Source: a virus
Direction: 5' to 3' (one strand)
Length of the DNA stretch: 64,000 nucleotides
Virus record (IMG/VR): IMGVR_UViG_3300038468_000190
Location: 62,001 to 126,000 of that record
Shown: positions 41,491-63,124 of the stretch, piece after piece
How the letters are laid out: every line of letters starts with the position of its first letter
Position numbering within the stretch: the stretch's first letter is position 1
Program-made: the position numbers and the translations under genes
The notes under the pieces: generated by a model
What the model saw: only the letters and a program-made list of their open reading frames with translations
The model's database searches: none
What the model was told of the DNA's origin: nothing

Positions 41491-41777
41491 GGCCACCAGG
41501 GCTCCTTGACCCAGGCAAGGAAGGCCGCGCGGTGCGCGGAGTCCCACACGCCGAGGGCTTCGTGCATGTCGAACTTCTGCCCGTTCTCGTAGGGGTTCCA
41601 GACGGAGACGAGAAACCGGAGGCTGCAGAGGGCGCCGTGACCGAAGCCGCCGCGCCTGATAGCGCGGAGGAGCGGCCGGGCGTCCGTCCAGGGGCAGACG
41701 AGCGAACGGGCGCACTTGTCGACCTCTGGAAACGAGAGCGCGAGGGCGGTCATGCGTTCGTGAGGGGTCATGGTCAC
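41487..41777 (-). CDS. Hypothetical protein (96 aa)
   Basis: GTG start overlapping the upstream stop. ALGVWDSAHRAAFLAWVKEP and several Trp; compact helical protein. No family. Confidence 0.45.
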   Translation of the reverse strand: MTMTPHERMTALALSFPEVDKCARSLVCPWTDARPLLRAIRRGGFGHGALCSLRFLVSVWNPYENGQKFDMHEALGVWDSAHRAAFLAWVKEPWWP

Positions 41778-42178
41778 GTCCAGAAGAGGTGCGTCCCGCC
41801 GACCGCGGCGATGCGATCCATGATCGCGGCCACGCGTACGGCGTCGGCAGCCACGCCCGTGTACGGGGCGTCATCGCGCTCGCGGATGAGCCGCTCGAGC
41901 TCGGCGTCGTAGCCGGGCACCACGAACGCGCACGAGAAGTTTCGGACGAGCGAGCCGTCCCACTTCCACATGTAGGGCTTCGCGCCGTGACGGTCGGCTC
42001 CGTAGAGATTGATGCTCCCGAGCCAGCATTCGCCGTGGTCTTCGGCCATCGCCTCGATGACTCGACGGCACGAGTCGTTCAGGTCGGTGTCGGCCTCGAC
42101 GGGCCAGCCGTCACCCTCGCGTACGCTCTTCACGAACGCGACCGTGTGCTCGGCGCGGGCCTCTTGGGTCTTGGTCAT
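41774..42178 (-). CDS. Hypothetical protein (134 aa)
   Basis: Start at ATG 42178. Mixed alpha/beta, with YMWKWDGSLVRNFSCAFVV and a C-terminal helix. No motif. Confidence 0.45.
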   Translation of the reverse strand: MTKTQEARAEHTVAFVKSVREGDGWPVEADTDLNDSCRRVIEAMAEDHGECWLGSINLYGADRHGAKPYMWKWDGSLVRNFSCAFVVPGYDAELERLIRERDDAPYTGVAADAVRVAAIMDRIAAVGGTHLFWT

Positions 42179-42185
42179 GGGTCTC

Positions 42186-42416
42186 CTATGTGCGCCTCCG
42201 CGAAGTCGATTGCGAGGGTGTTCGTTTGATCCAGAGAGCCCGGTCTCGGTTGCGGCGCCGGACGCGGGTCTCGAGCCTTTTGCACGCGACCCCAAGATCG
42301 CTCACGAACTCGTCGTCGAAGATCTCGGGTTCCCGCTGCAAGTCGTCCACGAATGCGTCTCCCATGGGACTACCAAGGACCCACAGGATGTGGGAGAGGG
42401 CCCGCGCACGCGTCAT
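42186..42416 (-). CDS. Small hypothetical protein (76 aa)
   Basis: ATG overlaps the upstream stop (TGATG). DDLQREPEIFDDEFVSDLG is acidic and helical; the C-terminus is strongly basic. No family. Confidence 0.45.
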   Translation of the reverse strand: MTRARALSHILWVLGSPMGDAFVDDLQREPEIFDDEFVSDLGVACKRLETRVRRRNRDRALWIKRTPSQSTSRRRT

Positions 42417-42661
42417 CAGAAAACTACCTCGCCGCAGTGCGCGCAGGTGCCCCTGCGGACGAGAGTCCCGACGCGCATGACGAGCGGCACGTCGTGCCGG
42501 CCGCGCGCGCACCAGACGTCGGCCCAGTGCGTGGCGCGCGGACACGTGGAGTCGATCTTGTGGCGCGCGCCGATGCGGCAGGCGAGACATTCTCCGCGCG
42601 CCGCGGCCCGGAGCTCTTCCTCGATGTCGATGCGCAGGGCGCGGTCTAAGTCGAGCTTCAT
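42416..42661 (-). CDS. Small zinc-binding protein (81 aa)
   Basis: CLACRIGARH, later C-x-H spacing and a terminal GTCAHCGEVVF. Six Cys and several His suggest one or two zinc sites. Coupled on both sides. Confidence 0.5.
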   Translation of the reverse strand: MKLDLDRALRIDIEEELRAAARGECLACRIGARHKIDSTCPRATHWADVWCARGRHDVPLVMRVGTLVRRGTCAHCGEVVF

Positions 42662-43020
42662 TCAAGAACCCTCCCGAAGTCGACCCGAAGATACCGACGG
42701 GCATCTTCCAGCGTCACGTCGAAAAAGAAGTGATGGTTCCACTTACCGGAGTAAGGATTCAAATGGAGGACGCCAAGCGTCTTGGCTGCCTCCACGTCCT
42801 CGAATCGGGTGAACACGGAGGCCCCCGCTCCGGCGATGTTGGGTCGGACGGAGATCCATAGGTCCCCCGCCCTGGTCCGGAGCTTGTACGGGTACATGCG
42901 CCCCACGGTCTTCTCGGCTCCGAGACTCTCGACGAACTTCACGAGCTCCGCTGCATAGCCAGCGTTGGCCAGCTCCCAGTTCTTTTTGCGCCGAGGAGCC
43001 CGGCGTTCGGGTTTGGTCAT
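42658..43020 (-). CDS. Hypothetical protein (120 aa)
   Basis: Basic N-terminus, then alpha/beta with DLWISVRPNIAGAGASVFTR and NPYSGKWNHHFFFDVTLED. The fold is unclear; no family. Confidence 0.45.
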   Translation of the reverse strand: MTKPERRAPRRKKNWELANAGYAAELVKFVESLGAEKTVGRMYPYKLRTRAGDLWISVRPNIAGAGASVFTRFEDVEAAKTLGVLHLNPYSGKWNHHFFFDVTLEDARRYLRVDFGRVLE

Positions 43021-43024
43021 GGGG

Positions 43025-43342
43025 TCAGACCTCCTCGATATCGAGCGTCGACAGGATGTCCGAGCGCAGCGACCACGCCTCGTCGCCGCCATCCTCGTAG
43101 AGCCGACGGAGAAGGACGTGGAGCTCGTCCGGGTGCACGCGGACCTCGCCCGTCGTGTGGTCGGCGCTTGAGCGCTCGGTCAGCGCTTCCAGGTGCGAGT
43201 CGATGCCCTGATTCCAGGCCGCCGCGATAGCGCGCCACTCGTCTTTGCAGCGGATCGTCATCGGGTATCCGTCCGGACACTGGTCGGCACAGGCCTTTTT
43301 GATGACCTCGTCTGGGCAGGTTCCGAAGCTGTAGCGGCTCAT
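43025..43342 (-). CDS. Hypothetical protein (105 aa)
   Basis: ATG 43342 overlaps the upstream stop. Three Cys in the first 40 residues and a helical end (ELHVLLRRLYEDGGDEAW). No family. Confidence 0.45.
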   Translation of the reverse strand: MSRYSFGTCPDEVIKKACADQCPDGYPMTIRCKDEWRAIAAAWNQGIDSHLEALTERSSADHTTGEVRVHPDELHVLLRRLYEDGGDEAWSLRSDILSTLDIEEV

Positions 43343-43914
43343 GATTGCCTCGCTGGAAAGCCGTGGAGCTTGAGCACGAGATCCTTTGCGGGATCGGCCG
43401 GCTCCGCTCCGGACTGGTAGCGGAAGAGTGCGGCGTTGAGGTCGCCGTGCATGTACTCGCGCGCGGTCGTCCCGATCTTGTTCACTGGACGCTCGAGAGC
43501 CGCCTCGTGTGCCGCGGCGTCGGCGATCATCGCTTCCGCCGCGCGTCGAGCCTTCGCTCGGACGCGTTCGGGGTAGCTCTCGCCGCTGAATGACTCGAGC
43601 GGCGCACAGGCGCCGTAGCCGACCAAGGCCTCGACTTTGACGAGGTCGCTTGGTGGGCCATGCTCGATCTCGTCGTAGCCGACGGAGTCGAGCGCGCGCC
43701 GGATCTGTTCGTCCGAGAGCTCGGACAGGTTCACCGAGCACGTCTCGGCGTAGTACTCCGCCCAGCCGTCCCGCCGACAGGCGCCCTCGCCGCAGGCGTC
43801 GAACATGTTCGTGAAGCGGATCACGAACCACGTCCCGTCCGGCGCCTGGCGCGTCCACAGGCCGTGGTAGCCCGCCCAGTCGACGTCGGAGCCGATGTCC
43901 GTCCAGCCTTTCAT
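43339..43914 (-). CDS. Hypothetical protein (191 aa)
   Basis: WAGYHGLWTRQAPDGTWFVI then a Cys pair and FTNMFDACG; the second half is helical and Ala-rich. Largest unknown in this stretch. Confidence 0.45.
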   Translation of the reverse strand: MKGWTDIGSDVDWAGYHGLWTRQAPDGTWFVIRFTNMFDACGEGACRRDGWAEYYAETCSVNLSELSDEQIRRALDSVGYDEIEHGPPSDLVKVEALVGYGACAPLESFSGESYPERVRAKARRAAEAMIADAAAHEAALERPVNKIGTTAREYMHGDLNAALFRYQSGAEPADPAKDLVLKLHGFPARQS

Positions 43915-44285
43915 GGTTGTCCTTGTGGTGCGACGCGGATCTCCTCGAGCGTCGCCAGCGTGCGCGACAGGGACGCGTTCAGGTCGTCGAGCGCTTCGTC
44001 TTCGAGCTCGGTGCGGAGGTCAGCCCAGATGGCTTTCTCGGATTCGTAAGAGCAGCCGCCGAGGGATGCGGTGCCACGAAAGCCTTTCCAGGCCGCCGTC
44101 ACGAGCACGCTGCCCCAGGCGGCATAGTTTCCGTGGGCGAGCTCGCGCCGGATCCAGGCGTAGCATTCTTGGTCGACTGAGTCGTCGCCACTCGCCATGG
44201 CGTTGCCTTCGATGGGCAGGTCGTCCACCTCGAGCGTATACGTAAACTCGACCTCGTCGAGTCGCGTGAGCTTGCGAAGCGTCAT
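43911..44285 (-). CDS. Hypothetical protein (124 aa)
   Basis: ATG 44285 in the junction GTGTGTCATGACGCT, identical to that of the next gene upstream. Beta-rich start (VEFTYTLEVDDLPIEG), helical end. No family. Confidence 0.45.
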   Translation of the reverse strand: MTLRKLTRLDEVEFTYTLEVDDLPIEGNAMASGDDSVDQECYAWIRRELAHGNYAAWGSVLVTAAWKGFRGTASLGGCSYESEKAIWADLRTELEDEALDDLNASLSRTLATLEEIRVAPQGQP

Positions 44286-44614
44286 GACACACCTTCGCCG
44301 GCAAGCGTGAAGTCGACGTGTCCGCGCGCGAGCAAGGTCTCCACAGGGTCTTCCACTTGGTAGTTTGGAAACCACCAGATACGGCCGCGCACCGTCGGTG
44401 CGCCAGCGTCCGAGAACGTGAGGTCATCGGTGACGATGGGCGCTGAGGTCAGGGCCCCGATCCATTCGGGAGCCACGTAGCTCCACCCGATGCCAAAGTA
44501 GCCGTCGAGCAGTCCGCTCCAACGGTCGCCACGCATGGCTTGCAGATCCTCCAAGTCGTCGTTCGGGCCGATGGAGAACCGTAGGTTCCCGTTTGGGAGC
44601 ACGTCGAGCGTCAT
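44282..44614 (-). CDS. Hypothetical protein (110 aa)
   Basis: Start ATG 44614 in the same repeated junction GTGTGTCATGACGCT. RGRIWWFPNYQVEDPVETLL and many strands. Ends in GEGVS, encoded by the junction sequence. Confidence 0.45.
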   Translation of the reverse strand: MTLDVLPNGNLRFSIGPNDDLEDLQAMRGDRWSGLLDGYFGIGWSYVAPEWIGALTSAPIVTDDLTFSDAGAPTVRGRIWWFPNYQVEDPVETLLARGHVDFTLAGEGVS

Positions 44615-44847
44615 GACACACCTTCTCCGTTCGGGCATCCGGGCATGCCGCAATTGCACCCGGCGTCGCTCCGCGGCGCGGGAATGTTGAGAGCGTTCCT
44701 GAGAACCTGGGTCTCTGCGGCCGTTAGCAGGAAGTAGCGGACGGCGTCGTGGAACGCATCGATGTAGGGGCGACGCTCCGGGCCGCGCTCTCGGTCCTCC
44801 CAGTAGTGGACGAACGCGAGCGCCGCCTTGATCTTCTTCGGGTTCAT
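44611..44847 (-). CDS. Small hypothetical protein (78 aa)
   Basis: Helical, with AGCNCGMPGCPNGEGVS at the end; three Cys may bind metal. The same GEGVS end as the next gene reflects the shared junction. Confidence 0.45.
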   Translation of the reverse strand: MNPKKIKAALAFVHYWEDRERGPERRPYIDAFHDAVRYFLLTAAETQVLRNALNIPAPRSDAGCNCGMPGCPNGEGVS

Positions 44848-45068
44848 GGAGCCGCCTTACGCCGCACCATCAATGCCCGCCGAGTCGGTTTCAGATACAT
44901 GGACATGAGGTTCGCGACCGTATCCTCGTCTTGCCGACTGAGCCGCTCCCTGTACTTCCGAATTGCCTCATCATAGGCCTTGCGGCGGGCGCCGCGCACC
45001 CCGTCGCCCACAAGGGCGACCTCGCGCTGGAGCGCAAACTCAGTGGCCTCAAAAACGGCGCGGTTCAA
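44844..45068 (-). CDS. Small helical protein (74 aa)
   Basis: Basic amphipathic helices (DEAIRKYRERLSRQDEDTVA), coupled by ATGA. No family. Confidence 0.45.
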   Translation of the reverse strand: MNRAVFEATEFALQREVALVGDGVRGARRKAYDEAIRKYRERLSRQDEDTVANLMSMYLKPTRRALMVRRKAAP

Positions 45069-45084
45069 TGGGCCCTCTCGCCGC

Positions 45085-45378
45085 TCATGGCGAGACCCCT
45101 TCCGCTCCCGGGCAGAGCTCGAACCTGTAGCGCCAGTTTGCGAAGGCCTGGCCGTTCGAGAAATACCACGTGAAGCGATGCCCGTATTCGCCGGGCGCGC
45201 AGTTCAGGTTGAGGCCCTCGACCCGCTTGTTGTCAAACCGAGTGACGGCCCAGTCCGGCCCCCACAGCAAGGGGCCGACCTTGACGCCTCCCACCATGTG
45301 GGAGTCGAAGTGTCCGCCGAGGGCCATTACGCCTAGCTGAAGACTCGTACCGACGGTTCTACGCTCGGGGATGTTCAT
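45085..45378 (-). CDS. Hypothetical beta-rich protein (97 aa)
   Basis: Strand-rich with FTWYFSNGQAFANWRYRFEL; overlaps the upstream gene by 20 bases. No family. Confidence 0.45.
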   Translation of the reverse strand: MNIPERRTVGTSLQLGVMALGGHFDSHMVGGVKVGPLLWGPDWAVTRFDNKRVEGLNLNCAPGEYGHRFTWYFSNGQAFANWRYRFELCPGAEGVSP

Positions 45379-45784
45379 GTTCAGCCTTCTTGGCTTCGTC
45401 GATCGGCGTGTGCAGCGCCGCGTCGAAGACTTCTGCGATGTAGTCCTTGATCTCGTTGCGGTTCCGCCCCCCGATCGTGAGCCGGAACCCGAACGCGAGC
45501 GACGGGCGCACCACCACGCGGTGCGTGGTCCAGCCGTCGTAGAAGCCGTGTTCGTTCATGTGATGAAAGTCGACGTCGAACACGAGGCTTTCCCCGGTGC
45601 TCTTGATGTCGTCGAGCTTGGTGCCGTTGTCGAAGCCGGAACCGCTCGGAAGGTAGCGCTTGACGAGCTCGGCCGCGCGCGCCTCGTGATATCGATCGTG
45701 CCACTCGTCGTTGCCGCTGCGACGGCAGTTGTCCCGCGCGATGAGGATAGACGCCAGTACTTGGTACAGGGGTTTCGGGGTCAC
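45359..45784 (-). CDS. Hypothetical protein (141 aa)
   Basis: Helical first half with HDRYHEARAAELVKRYL, then strands (GWTTHRVVVRPSLAFGFRL). No family. Confidence 0.45.
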   Translation of the reverse strand: MTPKPLYQVLASILIARDNCRRSGNDEWHDRYHEARAAELVKRYLPSGSGFDNGTKLDDIKSTGESLVFDVDFHHMNEHGFYDGWTTHRVVVRPSLAFGFRLTIGGRNRNEIKDYIAEVFDAALHTPIDEAKKAEHEHPRA

Positions 45785-45785
45785 G

Positions 45786-46040
45786 TCAGTAGCCTCCTCT
45801 GAAGTGCTTGAGCCGGTACTCGTGAAACGGTCGCAAGTGTTCGCGTGCCCACTCGCGGGCGAGCCGTCGAGTTTTGAACGCTCCTCGACTGAGGACAGAG
45901 AAGGGTCCCGTTCGCTCCGTCGGATGCCAGGGGGTCGGCAGATCCGACCACGGGAGAAGGATCGTGAAGTAGCCCCGGTTCGCCTTACGGCGCAGGCGCG
46001 CGAGCTTGCGCCGCGTGACTTTGTAGGTTCGATTGGGCAT
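45786..46040 (-). CDS. Basic hypothetical protein (84 aa)
   Basis: Many Arg/Lys (KVTRRKLARLRRKANRGYF) and a GAFKTRRLAREWAREHL helix; likely nucleic-acid binding. No family. Confidence 0.45.
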   Translation of the reverse strand: MPNRTYKVTRRKLARLRRKANRGYFTILLPWSDLPTPWHPTERTGPFSVLSRGAFKTRRLAREWAREHLRPFHEYRLKHFRGGY

Positions 46041-46043
46041 CGG

Positions 46044-46232
46044 CTAGTAGCGGATGACGCTCCCCCGTTCGAGTTTCTTGATCTCCGCCGGGCGAAGTTT
46101 GCGACACGGTGTGCCGCCTTGTCGTCGGGGCCCCACGTGCTTGGTGCAGTAGGCGAACCCCCGGTTGTCGACGTGCGACACGGGATCCCTACACGAGAGA
46201 TCCATGTCGCACTGTAGTTTGCGGGCGGTCAT
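46044..46232 (-). CDS. Small conserved phage-type protein (62 aa)
   Basis: ATG 46232 overlaps the upstream stop. CDMDLSCRDPVSHVDNRGFA then YCTKH gives a Cys2-Cys-His zinc pattern seen in short phage proteins ending with RKLRPAEIKKL. Confidence 0.55.
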   Translation of the reverse strand: MTARKLQCDMDLSCRDPVSHVDNRGFAYCTKHVGPRRQGGTPCRKLRPAEIKKLERGSVIRY

Positions 46233-46477
46233 GCGAGACCCCCGGCGAACGGTTCGAAAGCCCACTGCCCGGACCCCTGCAGCGTCGGCGCGTGCTTACA
46301 GTGGCCATGGTGTACTTGTCCCATGCTGGCGAGGTGCGCCGCGCAGATCGGGAACCGGCGAGTTTCGCCGTGGAGAGTGAACGCGGCGACTCCGATCGCT
46401 TCGTTCTGGTCGGGTGTGGGGCGACCGTTGCAGTCGATCCACTGGATCTGACACGTAGGGCGTTCGGGAGCGTTCAC
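46229..46477 (-). CDS. Small Cys/His protein (82 aa)
   Basis: The GTG at 46477 shares GTGA with the upstream stop. Pairs such as CQIQWIDCNG and FPICAAHLASMG suggest a zinc site, similar in layout to the previous protein. Confidence 0.45.
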   Translation of the reverse strand: MNAPERPTCQIQWIDCNGRPTPDQNEAIGVAAFTLHGETRRFPICAAHLASMGQVHHGHCKHAPTLQGSGQWAFEPFAGGLA

Positions 46478-46965
46478 GCGGCCGCCTTTCCGCTGCGAAG
46501 AGTGTACTCCCCGACGAACGGCGTGCCCGGCTGGCGCTGGACGCCCACGTTGACCCCGCCCCGCGGCTGGCCAGCGGCGCGGCGCACTACGGCGCGGCCG
46601 AGCACCGCATACACGGCGCCGTCGCCCGGGCGTTCTGCGACGCCGCGGAGGTACTCGCGAGCGCGCTCGCGTTCGGACGGAGCGGCGACGGGGGCCGCGG
46701 CATGCGCCGGGAGCTCCGGACGCTTGGCGAGCGCGCGATCGATCGCGCCTTGTAGGTCCCGGACGTGCGCCGGGCCGACCCGGACGACGCCACCTAGCTC
46801 GGCTGCGAGACTCGTCGCGGCGCGCGCCGTCACTGCGAGCACGATCGCGATGCGCCGGTCGCCCGCGGAGTCGTTTACGGTCGCGCTCCAGGCCGCGATC
46901 TGCCGCCCGTTCTCGAGGGCTACGCGGATCGCCCGCGCTTGCTCTGAATCGAATTTGTTGACCAT
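46474..46965 (-). CDS. First gene of leftward operon, hypothetical (163 aa)
   Basis: A clear AAAAAGGGAAA Shine-Dalgarno region ahead of ATG. Ala/Arg-rich, with RRIAIVLAVTARAATSLAAE and a basic C-terminal half. As first gene after the divergent control region it would be transcribed early. No family. Confidence 0.5.
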   Translation of the reverse strand: MVNKFDSEQARAIRVALENGRQIAAWSATVNDSAGDRRIAIVLAVTARAATSLAAELGGVVRVGPAHVRDLQGAIDRALAKRPELPAHAAAPVAAPSERERAREYLRGVAERPGDGAVYAVLGRAVVRRAAGQPRGGVNVGVQRQPGTPFVGEYTLRSGKAAA

Positions 46966-46998
46966 TGCCGTTTCCCTTTTTGAGCCCGGCTGCCCGGG

Positions 46999-47203
46999 TT
47001 TTGCGCCCTAGCGGCCGAGGAACGGCCCCCGCCGGGGTGCTCCGGCTGCCTCGAGACGACGTTACGAATAATCTACCATGCATAACGTCTCACTGGTAGA
47101 CGTTACGATAACTGTGCTTATCATAACGTCGGTCCCTGGCGCCGGCGTGCGCCGGGGGCCGTTCCCCGGGCCCGGGGCTGTTCCTGGGCTCCTAGGGCGC
47201 AAA
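46999..47203. promoter_or_regulatory. Symmetric divergent control region between the two small-gene operons
   Basis: Arms at 46999-47029 and 47174-47203 are imperfect inverted copies. The outer TTTGCGCCCTAG is identical in both, then AGGAAC and GCCCC recur. Both operons therefore start with similar leader sequences before their AAAGGGA ribosome sites. The centre is the only AT-rich stretch for kilobases. 46966-47244 holds no gene. Confidence 0.6.
47058..47130. repeat. Two tandem 32-bp palindromes
   Basis: Site 1 (47058-47089) has arms GACGTTACG and CATAACGTC. Site 2 (47099-47130) has arms GACGTTACGATAA and TTATCATAACGTC, 12 of 13 paired. The sites are 41 bp apart start to start, about four helical turns, so a dimer pair could bind on the same face. 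A half-site TTATCGTAACGT recurs at 59271. Confidence 0.65.
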
Positions 47204-47244
47204 CGGCGACCGTCGGAAAGGACGGCCGGCACGCGAAAGGGAAG

Positions 47245-47403
47245 ATGATGACGTTTTCGGATGCGGAATTCGCCGCGTTTCTCCGAGAGGAGCTCCGCGC
47301 GTATGAAGAGGGCGAACACATTCCGCCCTGGCTCTCGCGCGACGAGGCGATCGAGCAGACTGAACGCGAGCTCAAGCGGCTCGCACGGCAGAGCGAACGC
47401 TAA
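47245..47403 (+). CDS. First gene of rightward operon, small acidic protein (52 aa)
   Basis: AAAGGGAAG then two ATGs (47245, 47248). Acidic helices (FAAFLREELRAYEEGEHI, EQTERELKRLARQ). About 110 bases without a gene follow. No family. Confidence 0.5.
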   Translation: MMTFSDAEFAAFLREELRAYEEGEHIPPWLSRDEAIEQTERELKRLARQSER

Positions 47404-47513
47404 GCGGGGGCGCGTTCCGCGCCTGCTGGGCTCGCAAAGGGAAGATTCGTCTACGTCCGCTGGTGGCGGATACCAAGCTCCCGGACGTAGCGCAGTTTTG
47501 AAAGGGAAGAACG

Positions 47514-47696
47514 ATGCGGAAAACGTACCCGGAATGGATCTGGCGCACATACGACGTCAGGCCAACGTGGGCCTACGAGGCCACGATAGAGGAGTGGGCG
47601 AGCCACGCGTACGCGACGGTCGCCAGGGGCCTACGGCCCGCGTGGTTTCTGGCAGAGCTCCACTCGCACGCCAACGTCTCGCGGGGGACCCGATGA
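47514..47696 (+). CDS. Small hypothetical protein (60 aa)
   Basis: AAAGGGAAG ribosome site. Trp/Tyr-rich (YPEWIWRTYDVRPTWAYEA). ATGA coupling downstream. No family. Confidence 0.5.
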   Translation: MRKTYPEWIWRTYDVRPTWAYEATIEEWASHAYATVARGLRPAWFLAELHSHANVSRGTR

Positions 47697-47977
47697 CGCG
47701 CACATTCGTTCTCACGAACCGCCACGACCAGCGCGGGATCCAGATCGGGATCCGTCCCCTCTGCGTGGTCGCGTTTCACTTCTGGCGCCGCTACCGCGGA
47801 TCGCTCGGATGGACGCTGACTTTCGCGTTCGGGCGCGGCGCGGGCTGCCGATGGGGTCGCACGCTGTACTTCTCGCGCGGCGCGAAGGGTGGCCAGCGCT
47901 ACCTCTACAAGGCCGCGGGCTTTCGCGCCGGCTTCACCCAGAACGCCAACGAGACCCCCTACTCTTTCGGCTCTTGA
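47693..47977 (+). CDS. Basic hypothetical protein (94 aa)
   Basis: FHFWRRYRGSLGWTLTFAF and GRTLYFSRGAKGGQRYLYKA: strands with many Arg and aromatic residues, perhaps nucleic-acid binding. No family. Confidence 0.45.
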   Translation: MTRTFVLTNRHDQRGIQIGIRPLCVVAFHFWRRYRGSLGWTLTFAFGRGAGCRWGRTLYFSRGAKGGQRYLYKAAGFRAGFTQNANETPYSFGS

Positions 47978-47979
47978 TC

Positions 47980-48186
47980 ATGTCCGACCTCCTCGACACG
48001 TTCGCCCAAGACTTGGCGCACGCCGCCATGGCGGCGCACTACGGCGAGGCCGACCGGATCGACGATCCGCTGCTTCGCGCCGCGGGCGAGATCTACCTCG
48101 CGTTCGAGAGCGGCCACGTAAGCGCGCCGCACCCGCACGCGTCCAACGGCCGGCTCAGGTTCGCCGTCTATGTGAGGCCCCGATGA
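47980..48186 (+). CDS. Small hypothetical protein (68 aa)
   Basis: Start ATG 47980. Helical, with LDTFAQDLAHAAMAAHYGEA; ATGA coupling to the next gene. No family. Confidence 0.45.
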   Translation: MSDLLDTFAQDLAHAAMAAHYGEADRIDDPLLRAAGEIYLAFESGHVSAPHPHASNGRLRFAVYVRPR

Positions 48187-48491
48187 GTGAATTCACCGAT
48201 TCAATCGAGCGCGAGCTTCGCGGCTGCGAAGCGTTCAGCGTCGGGTCGTGCCCCGGCTGCTCGGAGTGCGGGCTCGGCGAGGATCCCAGCGACACGGATC
48301 GCGAGCTCGCCGAGGAGTCACGCTTCTCCTGGCGCGCATGCGACTCGTGCGGGAGCACGTTCGGGGGCGACCGGCACCCGGCGCACTACCTCGACGACGA
48401 GCGCGCGATCGTCCACGTCCACGTCTGCACCGATTGTCTCTTCTTCCACGCGAACGGCGACGAGCCGGACGACTGGAGCAAGCACCCATGA
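48183..48491 (+). CDS. Zinc-finger protein (102 aa)
   Basis: CPGCSECG, then CDSCGSTFGGDRHPAHYLD and HVCTDCLFFHANGDEPDDW: three Cys pairs and His, two likely zinc sites. Acidic overall. Function unknown. Confidence 0.5.
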   Translation: MSEFTDSIERELRGCEAFSVGSCPGCSECGLGEDPSDTDRELAEESRFSWRACDSCGSTFGGDRHPAHYLDDERAIVHVHVCTDCLFFHANGDEPDDWSKHP

Positions 48492-48895
48492 ACAAGGAAC
48501 TAGAAGCACTTCTTCTGTCCGCCGCGAAAGCGCTCGACCTCGGCGTCGTCGGCGTAAACCCCGAGCGCGCCTGTGACTGGGGTGTCCCCATGGGGGTCCT
48601 GGTACTCGAGGGCCAGACGATCCCGGGCCACTCGAAGAAAGCCCGCACGGCGGGCTACTACACGCCCTATTCCGCATGGCGTCCCCCGTCCGGCAAGTGC
48701 TTGTTCGTGGACCACGTCGAGCACGGCGACGGCAAGAGTCACTACCAGATCTTCCTCCTGTCGGAGGACACGACGGGCTACGGGGCGTTCAACGGGCGGC
48801 ACGACGGGTTCTCCCTGTCGGAGATGAAGGCGTACCTCCGCGGCGTCGCCGACGGCGCGGACATGATTCCAAAACCACGAAAGGGACGACGATGA
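48488..48895 (+). CDS. Hypothetical protein (135 aa)
   Basis: Alpha/beta with WGVPMGVLVLEGQTIPGHS and HYQIFLLSEDTTGYGAF; basic tail. Coupled both sides. No family. Confidence 0.45.
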   Translation: MNKELEALLLSAAKALDLGVVGVNPERACDWGVPMGVLVLEGQTIPGHSKKARTAGYYTPYSAWRPPSGKCLFVDHVEHGDGKSHYQIFLLSEDTTGYGAFNGRHDGFSLSEMKAYLRGVADGADMIPKPRKGRR

Positions 48896-49152
48896 CCGGC
48901 GCTGAGGTCACGCGCATCGCACAGAAACTCGTGGCTGACATGGGTTACGAGGCTGCGTTACAGGACGTCCGGCGCCGGATTCGGTACATGCAAGGGGCGC
49001 ACCCGAGCTACGGCGCATTCTGGGAGTCTGTTTTGTTAGAGCTCCTGGCGGCCCGCGTTGTCTGCCACGCCATGCGCCACCTGTCCCCGACTCCGGAGCT
49101 CAAGGCGAGCGGCCGGTGCCCGAAACTCTTCGAACGAAAGGATCTCCCGTGA
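48892..49152 (+). CDS. Hypothetical protein (86 aa)
   Basis: ATGA start. Helical, ending SGRCPKLFERKDLP. No family. Confidence 0.45.
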   Translation: MTGAEVTRIAQKLVADMGYEAALQDVRRRIRYMQGAHPSYGAFWESVLLELLAARVVCHAMRHLSPTPELKASGRCPKLFERKDLP

Positions 49153-49358
49153 GCGACGTTCGCATCGAAACAGGCGGACGCCTGTCGTCGATGGTTCTGA
49201 TTACGCCGGTGTCCTACGTCGGGCGCCAGTGGATCGACGAAAACCTACAGGTCGAGGGCTGGCAATGGCTCGGCCGGAGCCTCGCCGTCGACAAGCGATA
49301 CGCTGCGCCCATCGTGGACGGCATGATCGGTGACGGGCTAGACGTGGAGGCCTCCTGA
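49149..49358 (+). CDS. Small hypothetical protein (69 aa)
   Basis: GTG start sharing GTGA. Beta-rich, with SMVLITPVSYVGRQWIDENL and WQWLGRSLAVD. No family. Confidence 0.45.
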   Translation: MSDVRIETGGRLSSMVLITPVSYVGRQWIDENLQVEGWQWLGRSLAVDKRYAAPIVDGMIGDGLDVEAS

Positions 49359-49555
49359 TGAATCGCCTCATCCTCACCGAAAACGACCTCGCAACGCTCG
49401 TCAATGCGCTCCACGAGGCCGCCGGCCAATGCCGGCTGGACGCTGAGCAATTCCCGGCGCTGCGAAAAGCCTCACTCGAGTCCGCTGAGCAGTACGAGCT
49501 CTTGGAAGAGAAGCTCGCCGAGGCCGACTCCATCATCGTGGAGCGGAGCCCATGA
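49358..49555 (+). CDS. Small helical protein (65 aa)
   Basis: Acidic helices with LATLVNALHEAAGQCRLDAE and a coiled-coil end. TGATG start. No family. Confidence 0.45.
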   Translation: MNRLILTENDLATLVNALHEAAGQCRLDAEQFPALRKASLESAEQYELLEEKLAEADSIIVERSP

Positions 49556-49836
49556 GCGCCGCGGCAACCGTCTGGTGCGCCGACTGTGGCGACGCGTACG
49601 ACGCGCCGCTCGGCTGCTGCCCAAACTGCGAGTGCGTAGAGAGGCTCACCGAGCGCACGAAGATCATCGTCACACTCGAAGTCGCCGGCAGTCCCGACGA
49701 CGCCATGACGGCGGTCGACCAGGCCCTGGACGAGGGCGTACTGCAAGACTTTCTGAATCAGCACGACATCGAAGACGTCGGTCCCGTGCACGTGCTCACC
49801 GCGGTCGCCCGCTTCGACGGATCGGAGAACACATGA
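49552..49836 (+). CDS. Zinc-ribbon protein (94 aa)
   Basis: VWCADCGDAYDAPLGCCPNC is a rubredoxin-like Cys4 knuckle at residues 8-27, followed by a ferredoxin-like alpha/beta half (IIVTLEVAGSPDDAMTAVD). Overlaps the AAA gene by ATGA and may assist it. Confidence 0.5.
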   Translation: MSAAATVWCADCGDAYDAPLGCCPNCECVERLTERTKIIVTLEVAGSPDDAMTAVDQALDEGVLQDFLNQHDIEDVGPVHVLTAVARFDGSENT

Positions 49837-51374
49837 CACCCAGCCAGAAAACGAACGTCGACATTTCGGCCTTGCTCCGCGCGCGAAACACGCTTGTCTG
49901 GATCACGTCGCGGGAGGAGGTGCGCGTCGAGCGCGCCATCATCGAGGCGGCCGGCGCGGCGAAGTTCGAGACGCGGTTTTGGGACTGCGCGACGGGTCTC
50001 ACGGCTTCGGACGGCAAGGTCCTCGCCAACATCCCGAACGCCTACTCCGTGCTCGAGAGGATCCGCGACGACAAGGCGCGCATGCTCTACGTCCTCCGCG
50101 ACATCCCGGCGTGGTTCGATCCGCAGGTCGTCCGGATGCTCCGCTCGCTCGCCAGGAGCCTCCCCGGCGCGCCGAGGGACGAAGCGCGGGCCATCATCAT
50201 CCTCACGCCGCGCGGCGAGGTACCGCCCGAGCTCGCCGGCCATGCGACGGTCATCGACTATCCGCTGCCTGCCCGCGACGAGATCGCCGAGGTGCTCGAG
50301 ACGGCGCTCGGGGGATTGCCGGACGAATTCCGAGCCGCCGCGACCCCCACGAACGGCCTCCGAGAGCAAGCGATCGACGCCGCCGTCGGCCTCACCGCCG
50401 AGGAGGCCAGTAACTGCTACGCGAAGAGCCTCGTCACGACGAAGCGGATCGATCCCGCGCAAGTCTCCTCGGAGAAGCGCCGGGTCATCGCTCGAGAGAA
50501 AGTCCTCACCTGGTACGATCCGGAGCCCCGCGGGCTCGACGCGGTCGGCGGCCTCGAGCTTTTGAAGGACTGGCTCAAGGCGCGCCGCTCGGCGTTCTCG
50601 CAAAAGGCGAGAGACTTCGGCCTGCCCGAGCCGAAGGGGTGCCTGCTCGTGGGCGTCCCCGGCGGTGGGAAGAGCCTCACGGCCAAAGCCATCGCGACCG
50701 CGTGGGGCATGCCACTCCTGCGCTTGGACCTCGGCGCGCTACGGTCGAAGTACGTGGGCGAGAGCGAGGGCAACATCCGAAAGGCCCTGGCGGTCGCCGA
50801 GACCGTGGCGCCGTGCGTGCTCTGGCTCGACGAGATCGAAAAGGCCCTGGCGGGCGCGACGGGCGCTCAGGGCGACGGCGGCGTCTCAGCGGACGCGCTC
50901 GGCGCGGTGCTCTCCTGGATGCAGGAGCGCCAGGCGCCGGTGTTCGTGGTGGCGACCGCGAACAAGGTGAGTGACCTCCCGCCGGAGCTTCTCCGGAAGG
51001 GCCGTTTCGACGAGCTCTTTTTCGTGGACCTACCGACCCCAGCCGAACGCAAGGCAATCCTCCGGACGACCCTCGCGGCCTTCAAGCGGAGCCCGGACGG
51101 CATCGACGAGGACGCCGTCGCGCGGGCGACGCAGAGCTTCACCGGCGCCGAGATCGCGGCCATCGTGCCCGAGGCGATGTTCGTGGCGTTCGGGGAGGGG
51201 GAGCGCGCGATCCAGACCGAAGATCTCCTCGCCGCCGCAGCGCGCGTCGTGCCGCTCGCCGAGACCGCAAAGGAACAACTCGCCGAGCTCCGCGCCTGGG
51301 CCAAGGGCAAGGCGCGGCCCGCCGCGACGCCCGTCGCCGAAGCGCCTCGTAAGCCACGGGAGCTCGACCTCTGA
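49833..51374 (+). CDS. AAA+ ATPase, Ycf46-like
   Basis: 513 aa. N-terminal domain (residues 1-235) without motifs. AAA core: Walker A GVPGGGKSLT (K280), Walker B CVLWLDEIEKA (D333, E334), sensor VVATANKVSDLP and LRKGRFDELF with the arginine finger. This order matches chloroplast/cyanobacterial Ycf46 and phage homologs. It probably remodels a protein complex. It is in one operon with the two conserved genes that follow. Confidence 0.8.
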   Translation: MTPSQKTNVDISALLRARNTLVWITSREEVRVERAIIEAAGAAKFETRFWDCATGLTASDGKVLANIPNAYSVLERIRDDKARMLYVLRDIPAWFDPQVVRMLRSLARSLPGAPRDEARAIIILTPRGEVPPELAGHATVIDYPLPARDEIAEVLETALGGLPDEFRAAATPTNGLREQAIDAAVGLTAEEASNCYAKSLVTTKRIDPAQVSSEKRRVIAREKVLTWYDPEPRGLDAVGGLELLKDWLKARRSAFSQKARDFGLPEPKGCLLVGVPGGGKSLTAKAIATAWGMPLLRLDLGALRSKYVGESEGNIRKALAVAETVAPCVLWLDEIEKALAGATGAQGDGGVSADALGAVLSWMQERQAPVFVVATANKVSDLPPELLRKGRFDELFFVDLPTPAERKAILRTTLAAFKRSPDGIDEDAVARATQSFTGAEIAAIVPEAMFVAFGEGERAIQTEDLLAAAARVVPLAETAKEQLAELRAWAKGKARPAATPVAEAPRKPRELDL

Positions 51375-51405
51375 GCTCCGCAGAACAACAAGGGAAGAAC
51401 CGACC

Positions 51406-52152
51406 ATGACCACGACATCGCTCCTCAAACCAGGGTTTCTCGTCAGTCTGAAGACGTCGCTACAGGGCGGCGTCTCCTACCATCGGGTCGACCTCGACGC
51501 CGACCGGCCCGAGGGCGACCCCGCGGCCATCGCGCGCTGGGAGACCACGCGCCGCATCGACGACCCCGACGAGCACAAGCGCGCGACCAAGGCGCGGAGC
51601 GCCGCGAGCTCGCTCATTCGAGCGGTCTGCACGCATACGGCGTTCGGGCTCTTGTGCCCGGAGTCCAAAGCGGCCGAGCTCGACGAGGCGATCCAGGGCG
51701 CGCAAGCGCTCATCGACGCTCACAACCAGGCGGCGCACTCGACCCACGTCCGGGTCTACGTGCTCCGCGGCCGCATCGCCTCGACCGACGAGGAGGCCGT
51801 CAGGGCCCTGTCGAGCGAGGTCCGAGAGGTGCTCGAGGAGATGCAGGCCGGCATCCGTCGGGTCGACGTCACGGCGATTCGAGAGGCGGCCACTCGAGCC
51901 CGAAAGCTCGGCGCGATTCTCGACGCCGACCAGGCCGCCAAGGTGAACCGCGCCGTCGAGGCGGCGAGAGACGCCGCCAAGCAGATCGTCAAGCGCATCG
52001 ACGTCGAGGGCGCGGAGGCCGTGCGCGCCGTGGCCGAGGGCATGAGCGGGCCGATCGAGCAGGCGCGGTTTTCGTTCCTCGAGATCGAGGAGAGCATCGC
52101 CACGCCCGTCCACGTGCCGGCCCAAGCGGCCCGTGATCTCGAGGTGCAGTGA
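51406..52152 (+). CDS. Helical protein (248 aa), AAA-linked
   Basis: AAGGGAAGAA ribosome site. After a strand region (FLVSLKTSLQGGVSYHRVDL) it is mostly helical. Resembles DUF3150-type proteins that accompany AAA ATPases in phages; likely a partner. Confidence 0.5.
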   Translation: MTTTSLLKPGFLVSLKTSLQGGVSYHRVDLDADRPEGDPAAIARWETTRRIDDPDEHKRATKARSAASSLIRAVCTHTAFGLLCPESKAAELDEAIQGAQALIDAHNQAAHSTHVRVYVLRGRIASTDEEAVRALSSEVREVLEEMQAGIRRVDVTAIREAATRARKLGAILDADQAAKVNRAVEAARDAAKQIVKRIDVEGAEAVRAVAEGMSGPIEQARFSFLEIEESIATPVHVPAQAARDLEVQ

Positions 52153-52155
52153 GCC

Positions 52156-52491
52156 ATGCCCTGCGACACGGTACGTCTCTCGCCCGGCCAGACCCTGGCC
52201 GAGCGGATGGCCCAAGTGAAGGCGGCCCTTCAGCGTCTCGAGCAGAAACTCCAGAGCGGCGCCGTGCGCCTCGGCATCGGCCCGAACGGCGCCGTGGTCT
52301 TCCAGGGCTGGGCGGACAGGGACGGCGTGACCGACGTCTGCGCGTACCGCTCGCTCGCCGCGGAAAACTCCTGGGCGCTTCGCCAGGCCGTCGCTCGCGC
52401 CGAGCAATTCAGCGGGCGCAAGGTCAACGTGAACGCCGTCGCCGCGGGCGTGCACTCGCACGACGGCGGCCGGTCATGGGACAAGCACTGA
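52156..52491 (+). CDS. DUF-type protein beginning MPCDT (111 aa)
   Basis: MPCDTVRLSPGQTLAERMAQ, then GAVRLGIGPNGAVVFQGW and DGVTDVCAYRSL. It recalls uncharacterised small proteins found beside Ycf46-like ATPases. Recognition is from memory of the pattern only. Confidence 0.5.
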   Translation: MPCDTVRLSPGQTLAERMAQVKAALQRLEQKLQSGAVRLGIGPNGAVVFQGWADRDGVTDVCAYRSLAAENSWALRQAVARAEQFSGRKVNVNAVAAGVHSHDGGRSWDKH

Positions 52492-52814: not shown

Positions 52815-52818
52815 GAGC

Positions 52819-53193: not shown

Positions 53194-53414
53194 TGACAAA
53201 CGAGGAACGTATTGAACGCGCCGAGCGGTACGTCGTGAAGCTCCTGACGTCCCAGTACCGGGACCGCATCTCGAACCTCGAGAGCAAGAACATCGGCCGG
53301 CAGTCCAAGGTGCAGAAACGATGGATCGCCGAAGCGAAGGCGGCGCTACAAGCCGCAGAAGACGACGCCCGGATCATCTTCCGGGAAGTGATCGAGGGCA
53401 GACTGGAGCCGTGA
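53193..53414 (+). CDS. Small helical protein (73 aa)
   Basis: TGATG start. ERAERYVVKLLTSQYRDRIS and AEAKAALQAAEDDARIIFRE: two long helices. No family. Confidence 0.45.
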   Translation: MTNEERIERAERYVVKLLTSQYRDRISNLESKNIGRQSKVQKRWIAEAKAALQAAEDDARIIFREVIEGRLEP

Positions 53415-53697: not shown

Positions 53698-53715
53698 CTA
53701 CTCTGGACGTGAACC

Positions 53716-59270: not shown

Positions 59271-59282
59271 TTATCGTAACGT
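59271..59282. promoter_or_regulatory. Half-site shared with the divergent control region
   Basis: TTATCGTAACGT sits two bases before the recombinase ATG and is identical to one arm of the palindrome at 47099-47130 (minus strand). It probably binds the same regulator. An ACCC-AAAA-GGGT hairpin lies just upstream. Confidence 0.5.
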
Positions 59283-59284
59283 AG

Positions 59285-62200
59285 ATGTTCTCGGAGAACC
59301 GTCCCGAGCTCGCCCTGCTTCGCGGCAAGCGCGGCCCCGACGTGCTCGAAAAGTGGACGGCTGTCTTCGGCGAGGGGCGCCAGGATACGACCGCGCGCTA
59401 CCGGGAGATCCTCGATCGCATTGCGCGCCCTACCGCCGGCGAGGGGCCGTACGTCGGCCGTTACTCCAAGGAGACGGGGCGCGCGTACGGGCACGCCATC
59501 GCCGAGTTTTTCGAGTGGTGCGCACGGCAGCATCGCCGGCCCGTCCTACCCCGCGAGGTCAGCCGGCGAGACGCCGAGGACTACGTCGCCTGGCTCGCCG
59601 ATCGGCCCTTCAGCCTCGAAGAGGAGCGCCTCCGAGACGGCGACGCCGAGGGCCGGCTTACCATTTACGAGGCCGTGAAGAAGCTCGGCTCGGCCGATCT
59701 CTCGAGCATCCGGGCGGAGCTTCCCGAGCGGCTCGGAAAGAACAAGGCCGCGCTCGCGCACGAGCTCGGGCGGATGGTCCTTCACGATCTCCTCGTCCGG
59801 AGCCCGACGCTCGACGAGCTCAGAAAAACCGATCCGCAGATCGGCATCCGTCACTTCTCCGTGCCGATGCCCGGCGGCGGCGCCATGGATCTCGACGACG
59901 TCTTCGTCTACTCGACGCCGGAGCCCCGCGGCCTCAGCCGTTCGACGATCGCGCTCCGGCTCTCCGCCCTCTCGCGCTTCTGGCAGGAGCTCTGCCGCGG
60001 CGATCCGGAGACGCCGCCGCTCGTACGGTTCAACGTGTTCGACGAGATCTTGTCGCGCGTCTCGCGGGGGCTCGCGGCCGATAAGCGCGCCGCGCGCGCG
60101 CGTAAGGCCCGGCTTACGCCCGAGCTCGTCTCGCGCCTGCTCAATGCGGCTGACGGCCAGACGCTCGTAGAGAAGCGCGACGCGGCGCTGTTTTGGTTCG
60201 TGGTGCTGATGGGCTCGCGCGTCAGCGAGGCGCGGCTCATCCTCCGGGACAAGCCCCGCGACGTCCACCACGCGCCGGGCTGGCTCGAGCCGCTCTCGAC
60301 GCCGGTCGTCGTCGAGCTCGTCCGAAAGGGCGGCGTCCACCATCGCTTGCCCTATCCGCCGTACGCCCTCCGAGCGCTCTACGCGTTTCAGACCGAGCTC
60401 GAGCGCCACGCCGCGCCCCGCGGGAGCCAATCCGAAGATCCGCGCTCGCCCGGCTACGTCCAGCCGCGCTCGCCCAAGTGGCGCTACAAGGCGCTAGCCG
60501 AAGAGCCCGACGCGCCGCTCTTTCCTCCGGTCGTCTTCTGGGGCGCAAACTCCCCCGAGCTCTACGAGGAGCAGAAACCGAATCCCCTTCGGCCCGACTA
60601 CCGCCGGCCGATGAGCGCGGCCGGCGTCCGGGCGATCTTGAAGAAGATCGCCAAGAAGGCCGGGCTCTCGCCGGAAGAAGAGCGCGCCGTCCACAGCCAC
60701 GCCTTCCGGCACTTCGCGGCGACGGCCATGGCCCGTCGCGGTAAGCCCCTCCGCGAAATCAAGACCCTCCTCGGCCACTCGAGCATCACCGTCACCGAGG
60801 GCTACGTCGAGGACGAGACCGACTTGGCCGCGCTTTCCGGTCAGAACGAAATTCTTGACTACATCGCGACCGGCGAGACGGCGCCTGGCGCGCCCGCCCC
60901 CGCGCCCGCGCGCGTGGCGCCACGAGCGCCTCCAGAAGCGCCGCCGGCTCCCCCTCGGGTCATCGAGACGGTCGGCGTCAGAGCCCCTGAGAGGCGCCCC
61001 GAAGAGCCGGGATTGCCCGCCGAGTCGCCCACCGCCCGGAAGGGCCCCGAGACGCACGAGGTCGGAAGGGGCCTCGTCGCCGTCTCGGAAAAGGGGCCGC
61101 TCCCTCCCGACCGATTCCCCGGAAAGCCCGACGTCTCGGCGGGCTCGCCCTACTACGCCTACGCCGACATCGGCTCGGAAGACGCGGCCGACAGAGAGCC
61201 CATTCACTTCACCAGGGTAGGGCCCGCTCGAGCCTCCACGCGCGCGACGCTCTACGAGAAGGCCGGCAAGAAGATGGTCCAGGAGGATCCGTTTCTCGCC
61301 CGCCACTACGATCCGTGGCCGCTCGGCTACGGGATTGGCGAGACGTCGCTCCTTCCGTGGTTTGCGCGCGGCGCTGCCTCGAAGCACGGCGACGTCGTCG
61401 TCGACGTCCGCACGCGTACGGGCGAAAAGAAGAAGGCCGTCGTCCCGCCGCTTCCCGTCTTCGCCCCCGAGCAGCTCTACTCCGAGCTCAAGGCGAAGAC
61501 GCTCTTCTCGCGGGTCGAAGCGATGCGCGAGCGGTTCCTCAAAGAGGAGCCGACGAAGGCGTTCGGGCTCGACAGGTGGTGGGGCGCCTTTCAGGAAATC
61601 AGTAAGGGCCTCTCGGCTGGCACGAAGGGGAAGTTTCGATTCGTGCCGTTCGAGTCGGCGGGGGCGGTCGGTAAGGACGTCCGCGCCCACGACGACGAGT
61701 ACCTCGCCGCCTGGCTCGAAAAGAACGCCGGCCGCTACACGACGACCGTGAGGGCCTTCGAGAGCATCGAGCGGCCGCGCGGCGGGGCGCGCGACGAAGA
61801 AGAATGGGCCGCCTTCCGGGAGGCGTTTGCAAAGGCGTCGCTCGTCGGCGTGAGCCCGGCGGAGGAACTGCCGGACTGGTTTATCTTGGACGATCCCGTC
61901 AAAGACATCTGGAAGCAAAACCCGGAGGAGTGGGAGTGGTTTTCGAAATGGATCGGCGCCGTGACGGGCCAGAAGCTCACGAGCGCGCGAAAGGACGAGC
62001 GCGCCTCCGAAGTCCGGCTCGCCGAAGAAACGCGCCGCACGCGGATCGACGAAGCCCGCGAGCTCCTCAAGGCCTACTTCGAAAGCGTCGAGACCCTGCA
62101 CCGCGCGGGGCGCGCGCGCGACAAGGACGAGGCCGACAGGGAGCGCGAGACGATTGCCCTTCTCACCGAGCGCCTGGGAGCCCTCGGCGTCAGGGATCCG

Positions 62201-63124
62201 AAGACGGCCAAAGAGCTCCCCCGCACGCTCTCGGCGCGGATCGAGACGCTCCTCTCCGAAGCATTCCCCGAAGCCGGCGTCGAGCTCGTCGACCCGAACG
62301 TCCTCGAGAGCTCGCTCTTCGACAAGGAGTCATTTCGGATTGACAGGTTCGAGCACACGATTGTCCACACGGAAGCTTTCCGCGCGGAGTTTGCCGAGCG
62401 CTACGACGGGCGGGACTCGGAGTGCGTGATGCGCCGCGCGGCGCGCGGAATGTGGGAGCACGTGAAGCGCCATGGCATTCCGATCCAGCGCGGCACCGAG
62501 CGGTCGAGCGAGTACAGCCTTCTCTACTCGGTCATGCTCTCGTACATCGCCTGGATCGTCCCCTGCCCGCCGGACATCGAGAAGCGCATGACCGAAGTCA
62601 CCAAGGGCGAGCTCACCGGCGAGGAGGCGCGCCTTCGCTACCTCGGAGCGTTCCGGAAGGCGTCCGCGCGGCTTCTTCGCGTGACGCGTGACCACGACGA
62701 GGAAGAGCTTCTCGAAGCCGCGATGGACGAAGGGCTCGACGCGATGGGCGCGGCCGAAGTCCTCGAAGCCTCCCTCGTCGAGGACAGCCTCCGGGCCGCC
62801 GTAGCGCTACCGAGCGCGCCGGTCACCGAAGCTCTGGCCCGCACGGCCGTAGAATCCGGCGCCGTCGCGGTCAGTAGCCGCCGCCCCGCCGTCATCGTGG
62901 CGCGACGCGTGGGCCGGCAGGTCGTTCGCGACGTGCCGGTGCCGGCTGCTACCTACTTCTCGGTCGGCGACGACGACGAGGATGCCGAGCTCGCGCCGAA
63001 TGCGCCTCCCCGGCGCTACCTGACGCCGAATGCTCTTCGCGCGGGCCTCGCCTCCATGCGCCGGCCCGAAGAGACGATGCCGTCCGTCCTCCGTATGATG
63101 ACGGCGATGACGATCGGCTTTTAG
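59285..63124 (+). CDS. Large tyrosine recombinase with long C-terminal extension
   Basis: 1,279 aa. SAM-like core-binding segments lie within residues 55-260 (TGRAYGHAIAEFFEWCARQ, STIALRLSALSRFW). The catalytic domain keeps R312 (MGSRVSEAR), K348, H472 and R475 (HSHAFRHF), H498 (LLGHSS) and Y507 (EGYVEDE): a complete active site. After about residue 530 a Pro/Ala linker leads to about 700 residues with no known motif, charged and helical, including AETRRTRIDEARELLKAYFE-type coils. Usual integrases are 300-450 aa. It may integrate or resolve the element, with the extension recruiting DNA or protein. Confidence 0.8.
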   Translation: MFSENRPELALLRGKRGPDVLEKWTAVFGEGRQDTTARYREILDRIARPTAGEGPYVGRYSKETGRAYGHAIAEFFEWCARQHRRPVLPREVSRRDAEDYVAWLADRPFSLEEERLRDGDAEGRLTIYEAVKKLGSADLSSIRAELPERLGKNKAALAHELGRMVLHDLLVRSPTLDELRKTDPQIGIRHFSVPMPGGGAMDLDDVFVYSTPEPRGLSRSTIALRLSALSRFWQELCRGDPETPPLVRFNVFDEILSRVSRGLAADKRAARARKARLTPELVSRLLNAADGQTLVEKRDAALFWFVVLMGSRVSEARLILRDKPRDVHHAPGWLEPLSTPVVVELVRKGGVHHRLPYPPYALRALYAFQTELERHAAPRGSQSEDPRSPGYVQPRSPKWRYKALAEEPDAPLFPPVVFWGANSPELYEEQKPNPLRPDYRRPMSAAGVRAILKKIAKKAGLSPEEERAVHSHAFRHFAATAMARRGKPLREIKTLLGHSSITVTEGYVEDETDLAALSGQNEILDYIATGETAPGAPAPAPARVAPRAPPEAPPAPPRVIETVGVRAPERRPEEPGLPAESPTARKGPETHEVGRGLVAVSEKGPLPPDRFPGKPDVSAGSPYYAYADIGSEDAADREPIHFTRVGPARASTRATLYEKAGKKMVQEDPFLARHYDPWPLGYGIGETSLLPWFARGAASKHGDVVVDVRTRTGEKKKAVVPPLPVFAPEQLYSELKAKTLFSRVEAMRERFLKEEPTKAFGLDRWWGAFQEISKGLSAGTKGKFRFVPFESAGAVGKDVRAHDDEYLAAWLEKNAGRYTTTVRAFESIERPRGGARDEEEWAAFREAFAKASLVGVSPAEELPDWFILDDPVKDIWKQNPEEWEWFSKWIGAVTGQKLTSARKDERASEVRLAEETRRTRIDEARELLKAYFESVETLHRAGRARDKDEADRERETIALLTERLGALGVRDPKTAKELPRTLSARIETLLSEAFPEAGVELVDPNVLESSLFDKESFRIDRFEHTIVHTEAFRAEFAERYDGRDSECVMRRAARGMWEHVKRHGIPIQRGTERSSEYSLLYSVMLSYIAWIVPCPPDIEKRMTEVTKGELTGEEARLRYLGAFRKASARLLRVTRDHDEEELLEAAMDEGLDAMGAAEVLEASLVEDSLRAAVALPSAPVTEALARTAVESGAVAVSSRRPAVIVARRVGRQVVRDVPVPAATYFSVGDDDEDAELAPNAPPRRYLTPNALRAGLASMRRPEETMPSVLRMMTAMTIGF

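Follow-up and report, generated by a model that had tools for sequence, protein, structure and literature searches.

The locus under study lies in a window of 64,000 nucleotides, which corresponds to bases 62001–126000 of a 140,124-bp virus record (genome A, or G000). Genes were called with a simple codon-usage caller and fall into two opposite operons around this locus, as the original prediction had stated: a left run of about 18 kb with 35 genes (28873–46965) and a right run of about 11.5 kb with 30 genes (47248–58695). Between them lie two palindromes, 47058–47089 and 47099–47130, spaced 41 bp start to start with 9 bp between them, and both carry the exact arms GACGTTA-N18-TAACGTC. The predicted longer outer inverted repeat was also recovered (47000–47029 with 47174–47203 at 87%; 47015–47034 with 47150–47169 at 90%). 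Exact 7-N18-7 inverted repeats of any sequence are common in the window (12 found against 9.5 expected); the unusual feature is the presence of the same arm in two side-by-side copies, with no further exact copies in the window. Folded as a single strand, the entire region is far more stable than its shuffled versions (z = -6.3). Its description as the only AT-rich island of the area was upheld at a 70-bp scale, at which it reaches 60% AT, the highest value of the window and the third highest of the 140-kb record, and failed at a 150-bp scale.

Several other features of genome A were recorded. The window encodes a 630-aa TnpB/IS605 OrfB-like protein (31882–33774) with a 1.2-kb gene-free 3' stretch; this gap, 30665–31882, is a possible guide-RNA region. 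Two tRNA-like hits occur at 17516–17730, one a tRNA-Leu (aag) and the other an odd call with a four-base anticodon (taat). Repetitive, mutually similar genes (the MSRYGSV... family, with CCCGTCG repeats) lie at 1–1.6, 69.6–71.0 and 136.3–140.1 kb of the genome and cross-match between these far-apart parts; they are possibly tail-fibre-like.

Relatives were retrieved by two routes. Through a homologue of one AAA+ gene of the right operon, G001 was obtained (138 kb, probably complete, judging from its 127-bp terminal overlap), and a 1279-aa recombinase encoded in the window led to G003 (76 kb), G004 (116 kb), G005 (130 kb), G006 (136 kb, 123-bp terminal overlap) and later G008 (61 kb). The control region was compared across six genomes (A, G001, G003, G004, G005 and G006), and the seventh, G008, was used for the recombinase start site. 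The known-phage search gave no match for this group, and neither the recombinase nor the protein encoded by the first gene of the left operon had any relative among 50,697 annotated phage records. The source phages are large, previously undescribed bacterial viruses with genomes of 116–140 kb. Contigs related through the AAA+ gene only (L062–L070) lacked this region at the divergent junctions that were checked. Two of them, L063 (9488–9589) and L065 (5770–5870), carry other inverted repeats (TACAGTAAACGCTTTGC, GTAAACG motifs) at a divergent junction; these relatives are more distant, and the layout is similar to that of the control region with a different sequence.

The region and its flanks contain the following features:

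46474..46965, minus strand: first gene of the left operon, 163 aa, a family of its own, adjoining the region in A, G001, G004, G005 and G006
47003..47026, minus strand: leader element of the left transcript (GCCGTTCCTCGGCCGCTAGGGCGC), second-best profile hit of the genome
47059..47070, minus strand: half-site h1 (TATTCGTAACGT, leftward), candidate -10 of the leftward operon, leave-one-out rank 4 of about 280,000 positions
47060..47087, no strand: dyad site 1, 11-6-11, CGTTACGAATA-ATCTAC-CATGCATAACG, seen in the sequence, with 11-6/7-11 geometry in six genomes
47100..47111, minus strand: half-site h3 (TTATCGTAACGT, leftward), a 12-mer identical to the one at the recombinase start
47101..47128, no strand: dyad site 2, 11-6-11, dif-like by profile match, CGTTACGATAA-CTGTGC-TTATCATAACG
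47118..47129, plus strand: half-site h4 (TTATCATAACGT) with candidate -10 TATCAT (47119–47124) of the rightward operon, leave-one-out rank 3
47177..47200, plus strand: leader element of the right transcript (GCTGTTCCTGGGCTCCTAGGGCGC), best profile hit of the genome, nearly identical in G001
47248..47403, plus strand: small ORF of 51 aa that opens the right operon, with its start at 47245 or 47248, of no known family

The original prediction had named absence from close relatives as counter-evidence; each of the five relatives inspected has the region. A core of 72–75 bp, flanked by the same pair of divergent operons, is kept in six genomes, with the invariable order h1 (leftward), h2 (rightward), h3 (leftward), h4 (rightward), each of the four being a version of the half-site consensus TTATSNTAACG. 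The pairs h1/h2 and h3/h4 form two dyads of 28–29 bp, in which 11-bp arms enclose a centre of 6 or 7 bp, and the distance between the outer half-sites h1 and h4 is 59–61 bp in every genome. The 11-6-11 geometry is found at site 2 in five of the six genomes and at site 1 in A and G005, all others being 11-7-11. Site 2 reads CGTTACCATAA-CGTCAC-TTATGGTAACG in G006 and CGCTACCCAAA-CTGTAC-TTGTGGTAACG in G001, where the region is kept with changed arms and the inner ATAA/TTAT has diverged. In none of the six genomes does the inner arm h2 still have TTAT; what it retains is mainly AACG.

A half-site profile was then applied genome-wide in a leave-one-out manner, the tested genome being excluded from each build. 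Each genome's own control and recombinase sites ranked 1–4 of 150,000–280,000 positions, with the exception of one weak G001 arm (rank 20); in a pooled first scan, the G003 control region was recovered without having been in the training set. The half-site is prominent at only two loci per genome, the control region and the start of the recombinase gene. The two variable bases preceding TAACG are concerted within a phage (p = 0.00045 against shuffling, uncorrected for the relatedness of the genomes); for the recombinase site against the phage's own control sites alone, the agreement is not significant (p = 0.067), which counts against the recombinase as binder. Since these bases are concerted yet not set by a -10 box, they point to a phage-specific binder beyond RNA polymerase, and the most economical model would be one phage protein recognizing TTATSNTAACG.

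The half-sites h1 and h4 supply candidate -10 boxes for the leftward and rightward operons, positions that we infer from sequence; h4 provides the only sigma-70-like promoter hit in 46000–48500. With its conserved position, geometry and common half-sites, the locus is well supported as the divergent master control region that had been proposed. No regulator gene lies between the two operons or adjoins their divergence point, and the first genes on both sides have no match to a DNA-binding family. The first-left protein has a predicted N-terminal domain that gave no significant match in a PDB search; it was considered as a regulator and set aside, the predicted fold having no significant relatives. 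Two further candidates had been named by the original prediction. The RHH-like ORF at 24529 is conserved in four of the five relatives and the wHTH-like ORF at 35846 in fewer than four, and neither has a Pfam hit above the cut-off; small RHH-like proteins are widely conserved in this phage group.

These observations bear on the proposed bistable promoter switch, i.e., lambda-like control of lysis and lysogeny. Divergent operons with twin symmetric operators would suit such a switch, as would the same half-site at an integrase-family gene. However, the region is not flanked by a repressor pair, its first genes belong to no DNA-binding family, and a cI-type HTH_3 gene is absent from genome A; G001 and G006 have one each, neither of them at the region. 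In view of this, the switch has no positive evidence in its favour, and we regard it as very unlikely.

The second locus bearing the half-site is the start of a recombinase gene downstream of the right operon:

59271..59282, plus strand: half-site TTATCGTAACGT at the recombinase start, leave-one-out rank 1
59285..63124, plus strand: large tyrosine recombinase, 1279 aa, catalytic residues R312 K348 H472 R475 H498 Y507, Pfam PF00589

Each genome encodes a single PF00589 recombinase, except G005, which has two. The protein measures about 1,280 aa (1,249–1,432 aa in relatives), and its catalytic R-K-H-R-H-Y set is intact and invariant in all six proteins compared. The nearest NCBIfam models are XerA, XerC and XerD with scores of about 54–83 bits against cut-offs of 220–335, which places the protein outside the curated Xer families; the closest solved structures are XerA and XerD. 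We therefore suggest that it works like an Xer enzyme and do not claim that it is one. Its conserved C-terminal part of about 700 aa had no match in the family search, and the structure model of this part was too poor for use. In six genomes, the half-site lies 6–8 bp before the recombinase start codon and has TAGRAA or a near version of it 17–18 bp upstream (a TAGRAA-17-TATSGT layout); in genome A, the candidate -10 TATCGT (59272–59277) follows TAGGAA (59249–59254) with a 17-bp spacer. The half-site is conserved at this position in all seven genomes, including the out-of-sample G008, which has TTATGGTACCGACAgtg at the same spot. The arrangement resembles that of a leaderless promoter whose -10 is of the TANNNT type.

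The dyads resemble dif, the site of the Xer recombination by which bacteria separate joined chromosomes. The 47 dif sites of proteobacteria tabulated in PMC2731167 were compiled into a profile, independently of the phage data. The control region ranked first genome-wide in G003, G004, G005 and G006, second in A (site 2) and 14th in G001. Both dif and the core are AT-rich, and the columns of the profile were permuted as a control; none of 400 permuted profiles equalled the result over the six genomes, so the match is specific to the column order of dif. The Anaeromyxobacter dif arm, TTATGGTAACT (PMC2731167), is one base apart from the G001/G006 half-site TTATGGTAACG. Bacterial replicons carry a single dif site, and here two adjacent dyads were found in every one of the six genomes.

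A dif-like sequence in a phage could act as the att site through which the phage integrates at a dif-like locus of its host, in the manner of Xer-exploiting elements such as CTXphi. The closeness of the XerD-type arm to that of Anaeromyxobacter is compatible with this, and the two dif-like sites with strong single-strand folding recall attP1/attP2 of CTXphi (PMC4246890). Against it, no integrated copy or prophage/att junction was found in GTDB genomes, the complete records end in terminal overlaps and lack flanking host sequence, and the phages are large tailed-type dsDNA viruses with a recombinase of their own. We consider integration at a host dif-like locus improbable. As a sign of a phage-plasmid lifestyle, partition genes were sought, and ParB was not found.

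Our favoured reading is that the inner palindromes are paired dif-like sites bound by the phage's own Xer-like recombinase, which would also control transcription; we hold it tentatively, at slightly under even chances. The recombinase is the best candidate for the binder because the site is dif-like, because the half-site recurs at the start of its own gene, and because it is the sole DNA-binding enzyme present in all seven genomes. In the proposed mechanism, this large enzyme would bind the 11-bp arms with their 6–7 bp centre, and binding would also control both operons, since the outer arms coincide with their candidate -10 boxes. Through one arm on its own apparently leaderless promoter, the recombinase would be autoregulated in step with the two operons. 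Recombination at the sites would probably serve resolution of genome multimers or circularization, integration being less likely. The two sites have differing spacers and are thus unlikely to be partners of each other.

Several observations sit uneasily with the recombinase as binder: the twin layout, the degenerate h2, the mixed 6- and 7-bp centres, the single arm at the recombinase gene, the weak dif match of G001, scores below the Xer cut-offs, and the lack of a prophage in the GTDB genomes. The main rival is accordingly an ordinary operator, in which some phage regulator binds GTAACGT half-sites over the -10 boxes of both operons and the recombinase gene and represses or times all three, the dif likeness being incidental or ancestral. 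AACG is present in all 12 outer arms and in five of the six h2 arms, and TTAT occurs only where a -10 is needed; the loss of TTAT from h2 would be better explained by an operator with a -10 than by a recombination core. The single half-site within a promoter-like layout before the recombinase start, the phage-specific concert of the variable bases and the widespread small RHH-like proteins agree with this as well. On the other side stand the dependence of the dif match on column order, the absence of a conserved HTH_3 repressor and a region without an adjoining regulator gene. Such an operator is a serious possibility, to which we give rather less than an even chance.

The position of the region in the genome was assessed by GC skew in A, G001, G005 and G006, after correction at third codon positions for the effect of the coding strand. 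The best boundary pairs were 40.0/110.1 kb in A (region at 109.1), 63.5/132.7 in G001 (region at 132.1), 16.8/82.0 in G005 (region at 85.9) and 80.1/12.0 in G006 (region at 135.1, i.e., 13 kb off round the circle). The region thus lies 0.6–4 kb from a boundary in three of these four related genomes, in favour of the recombinase reading, and the 13 kb of G006 counts against that reading. The region is located on the side of the cumulative GC-skew maximum, which in bacteria marks the terminus (PMC3025954), and would by analogy lie at the terminus side of the phage genome. The skew-minimum side encodes DnaB and an adjoining AAA+ ATPase, taken for a helicase loader. Repeat clusters accompany the minimum in three of the four genomes: nine AACGGTT in 400 bp at 43.95–44.4 kb of the A record, seven AACGGTT at 75.3 kb in G006 and GAACGCC at 61.5 kb in G001.

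The original prediction had also offered a replication origin with iteron-like sites, and an AT-rich patch with repeats is indeed present. The control region nevertheless contains no tandem iterons or direct-repeat array and occupies the skew maximum, with dnaB, the loader gene and the repeat clusters at the opposite extreme. An origin at 47.1 kb was rejected on these grounds and is hardly credible.

Two further loci of genome A were noted outside the window. An AT-rich gap at 43.92–44.69 kb (L073:3920–4690), with nine AACGGTT/AACCGTT beside DnaB and the loader-like gene, is a candidate replication origin. The second large divergent junction of the genome, at 45.63–45.96 kb, has TTGACA-N17-TATCAG/C in both A and G001, an ordinary sigma-70-like promoter.

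The outer repeats are two copies of one element, placed as a putative transcribed 5' leader. In six phages, both leaders carry CCCC or GGGG followed by NNGTTCCTGG..., about 25–55 bp beyond the candidate -10 boxes, and within each phage the left and right copies share each other's variant. The window's genome has just two full copies, with a partial copy at about 47155–47170. Exact copies of CCCCNNTTCC-N5-ANGT number seven each in G003 and G004 (located in L113, i.e., G003 40001–60000, and in L092 and L093, i.e., G004 20001–60000); two are in the divergent leaders and the others in short gaps before the next start codon, and 14 of 14 face away from the control region, in transcript orientation. 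By analogy, a stoperator- or nut-like system is possible in these two phages. Both divergent mRNAs would contain the element, which would exert its effect once transcription has begun. A conserved RNA hairpin seemed convincing in a few copies, but comparison of its stem with swapped arms gave p = 0.067 and did not establish it; Rfam gave a sub-threshold antisense hit only. A promoter for a phage single-subunit RNA polymerase was also considered, and no PF00940 match was obtained in a search whose control gave none either. The leader core DNA pattern returned mostly chance matches in other viral contigs, and a longer pattern found G001 alone. In the gap before the second right-operon gene (47403–47514), GGGGGCGCGTTCCGCG is perhaps a decayed third copy.

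Together, our results suggest a link, amenable to testing, of site-specific recombination with the control of transcription in undescribed phages of 116–140 kb. Should the binder be the recombinase, these phages would possess an Xer-like enzyme of unusual size that has a regulatory function built in and acts on a compact dif-like site outside a chromosome. The fullest form of this reading, a single-recombinase dif system with twin sites at the phage terminus that double as operators of two operons and the recombinase gene, we judge rather unlikely; if true, genome-multimer resolution and the gene-expression programme would be read from the same DNA. A second candidate regulatory system is the leader element, of which two relatives have additional copies between genes.

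Among known systems, nutL/nutR and putL/putR are antitermination sites in which one element recurs in each early leader, a short way past the promoter. The leader element likewise occurs in both leaders soon after a candidate promoter, set against a hairpin test of p = 0.067 and no Rfam match above threshold. The stoperators of L5-type mycobacteriophages are short asymmetric elements located at promoters and in small gaps between genes, with an orientation that follows transcription (PMC9283540). The distribution and orientation of the seven copies each in G003 and G004 are similar, whereas the window's genome has only two full copies and the leader element could act as RNA.

In CTXphi, attP1 and attP2 are two close dif-like sites in a phage region able to fold as single-stranded DNA (PMC4246890), and our region shares both the neighbouring sites and the folding. 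CTXphi is, however, a filamentous phage that uses host XerCD and has 90 bp between its sites, in contrast to the 116–140 kb genomes with their own recombinase described here. The dif/Xer system itself acts on a 28-bp site with 11-bp inverted arms, a 6-bp centre and inner ATAA-N6-TTAT, near the GC-skew shift (PMC5357621, PMC3025954, PMC2731167). The arm and centre layout, the inner ATAA-N6-TTAT (diverged in G001), the Xer-like catalytic core and, in three of the four genomes assessed, the position near a skew shift are shared with it, notably with the single-recombinase systems XerA, XerH and XerS. The phage sites differ in being twin, 41–42 bp apart, with centres of 6 or 7 bp, and in lying inside a divergent promoter region with a further arm at the recombinase start codon; the recombinase differs in its length of about 1,280 aa, with a C-terminal part of about 700 aa that belongs to no known family. 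Apl of phage 186 offers a precedent for one protein engaged both in recombination and in the regulation of divergent early promoters, pR and pL (PMC7498355). Apl is an excisionase with direct-repeat sites and is not itself the recombinase, whereas the sites found here are inverted and dif-like.
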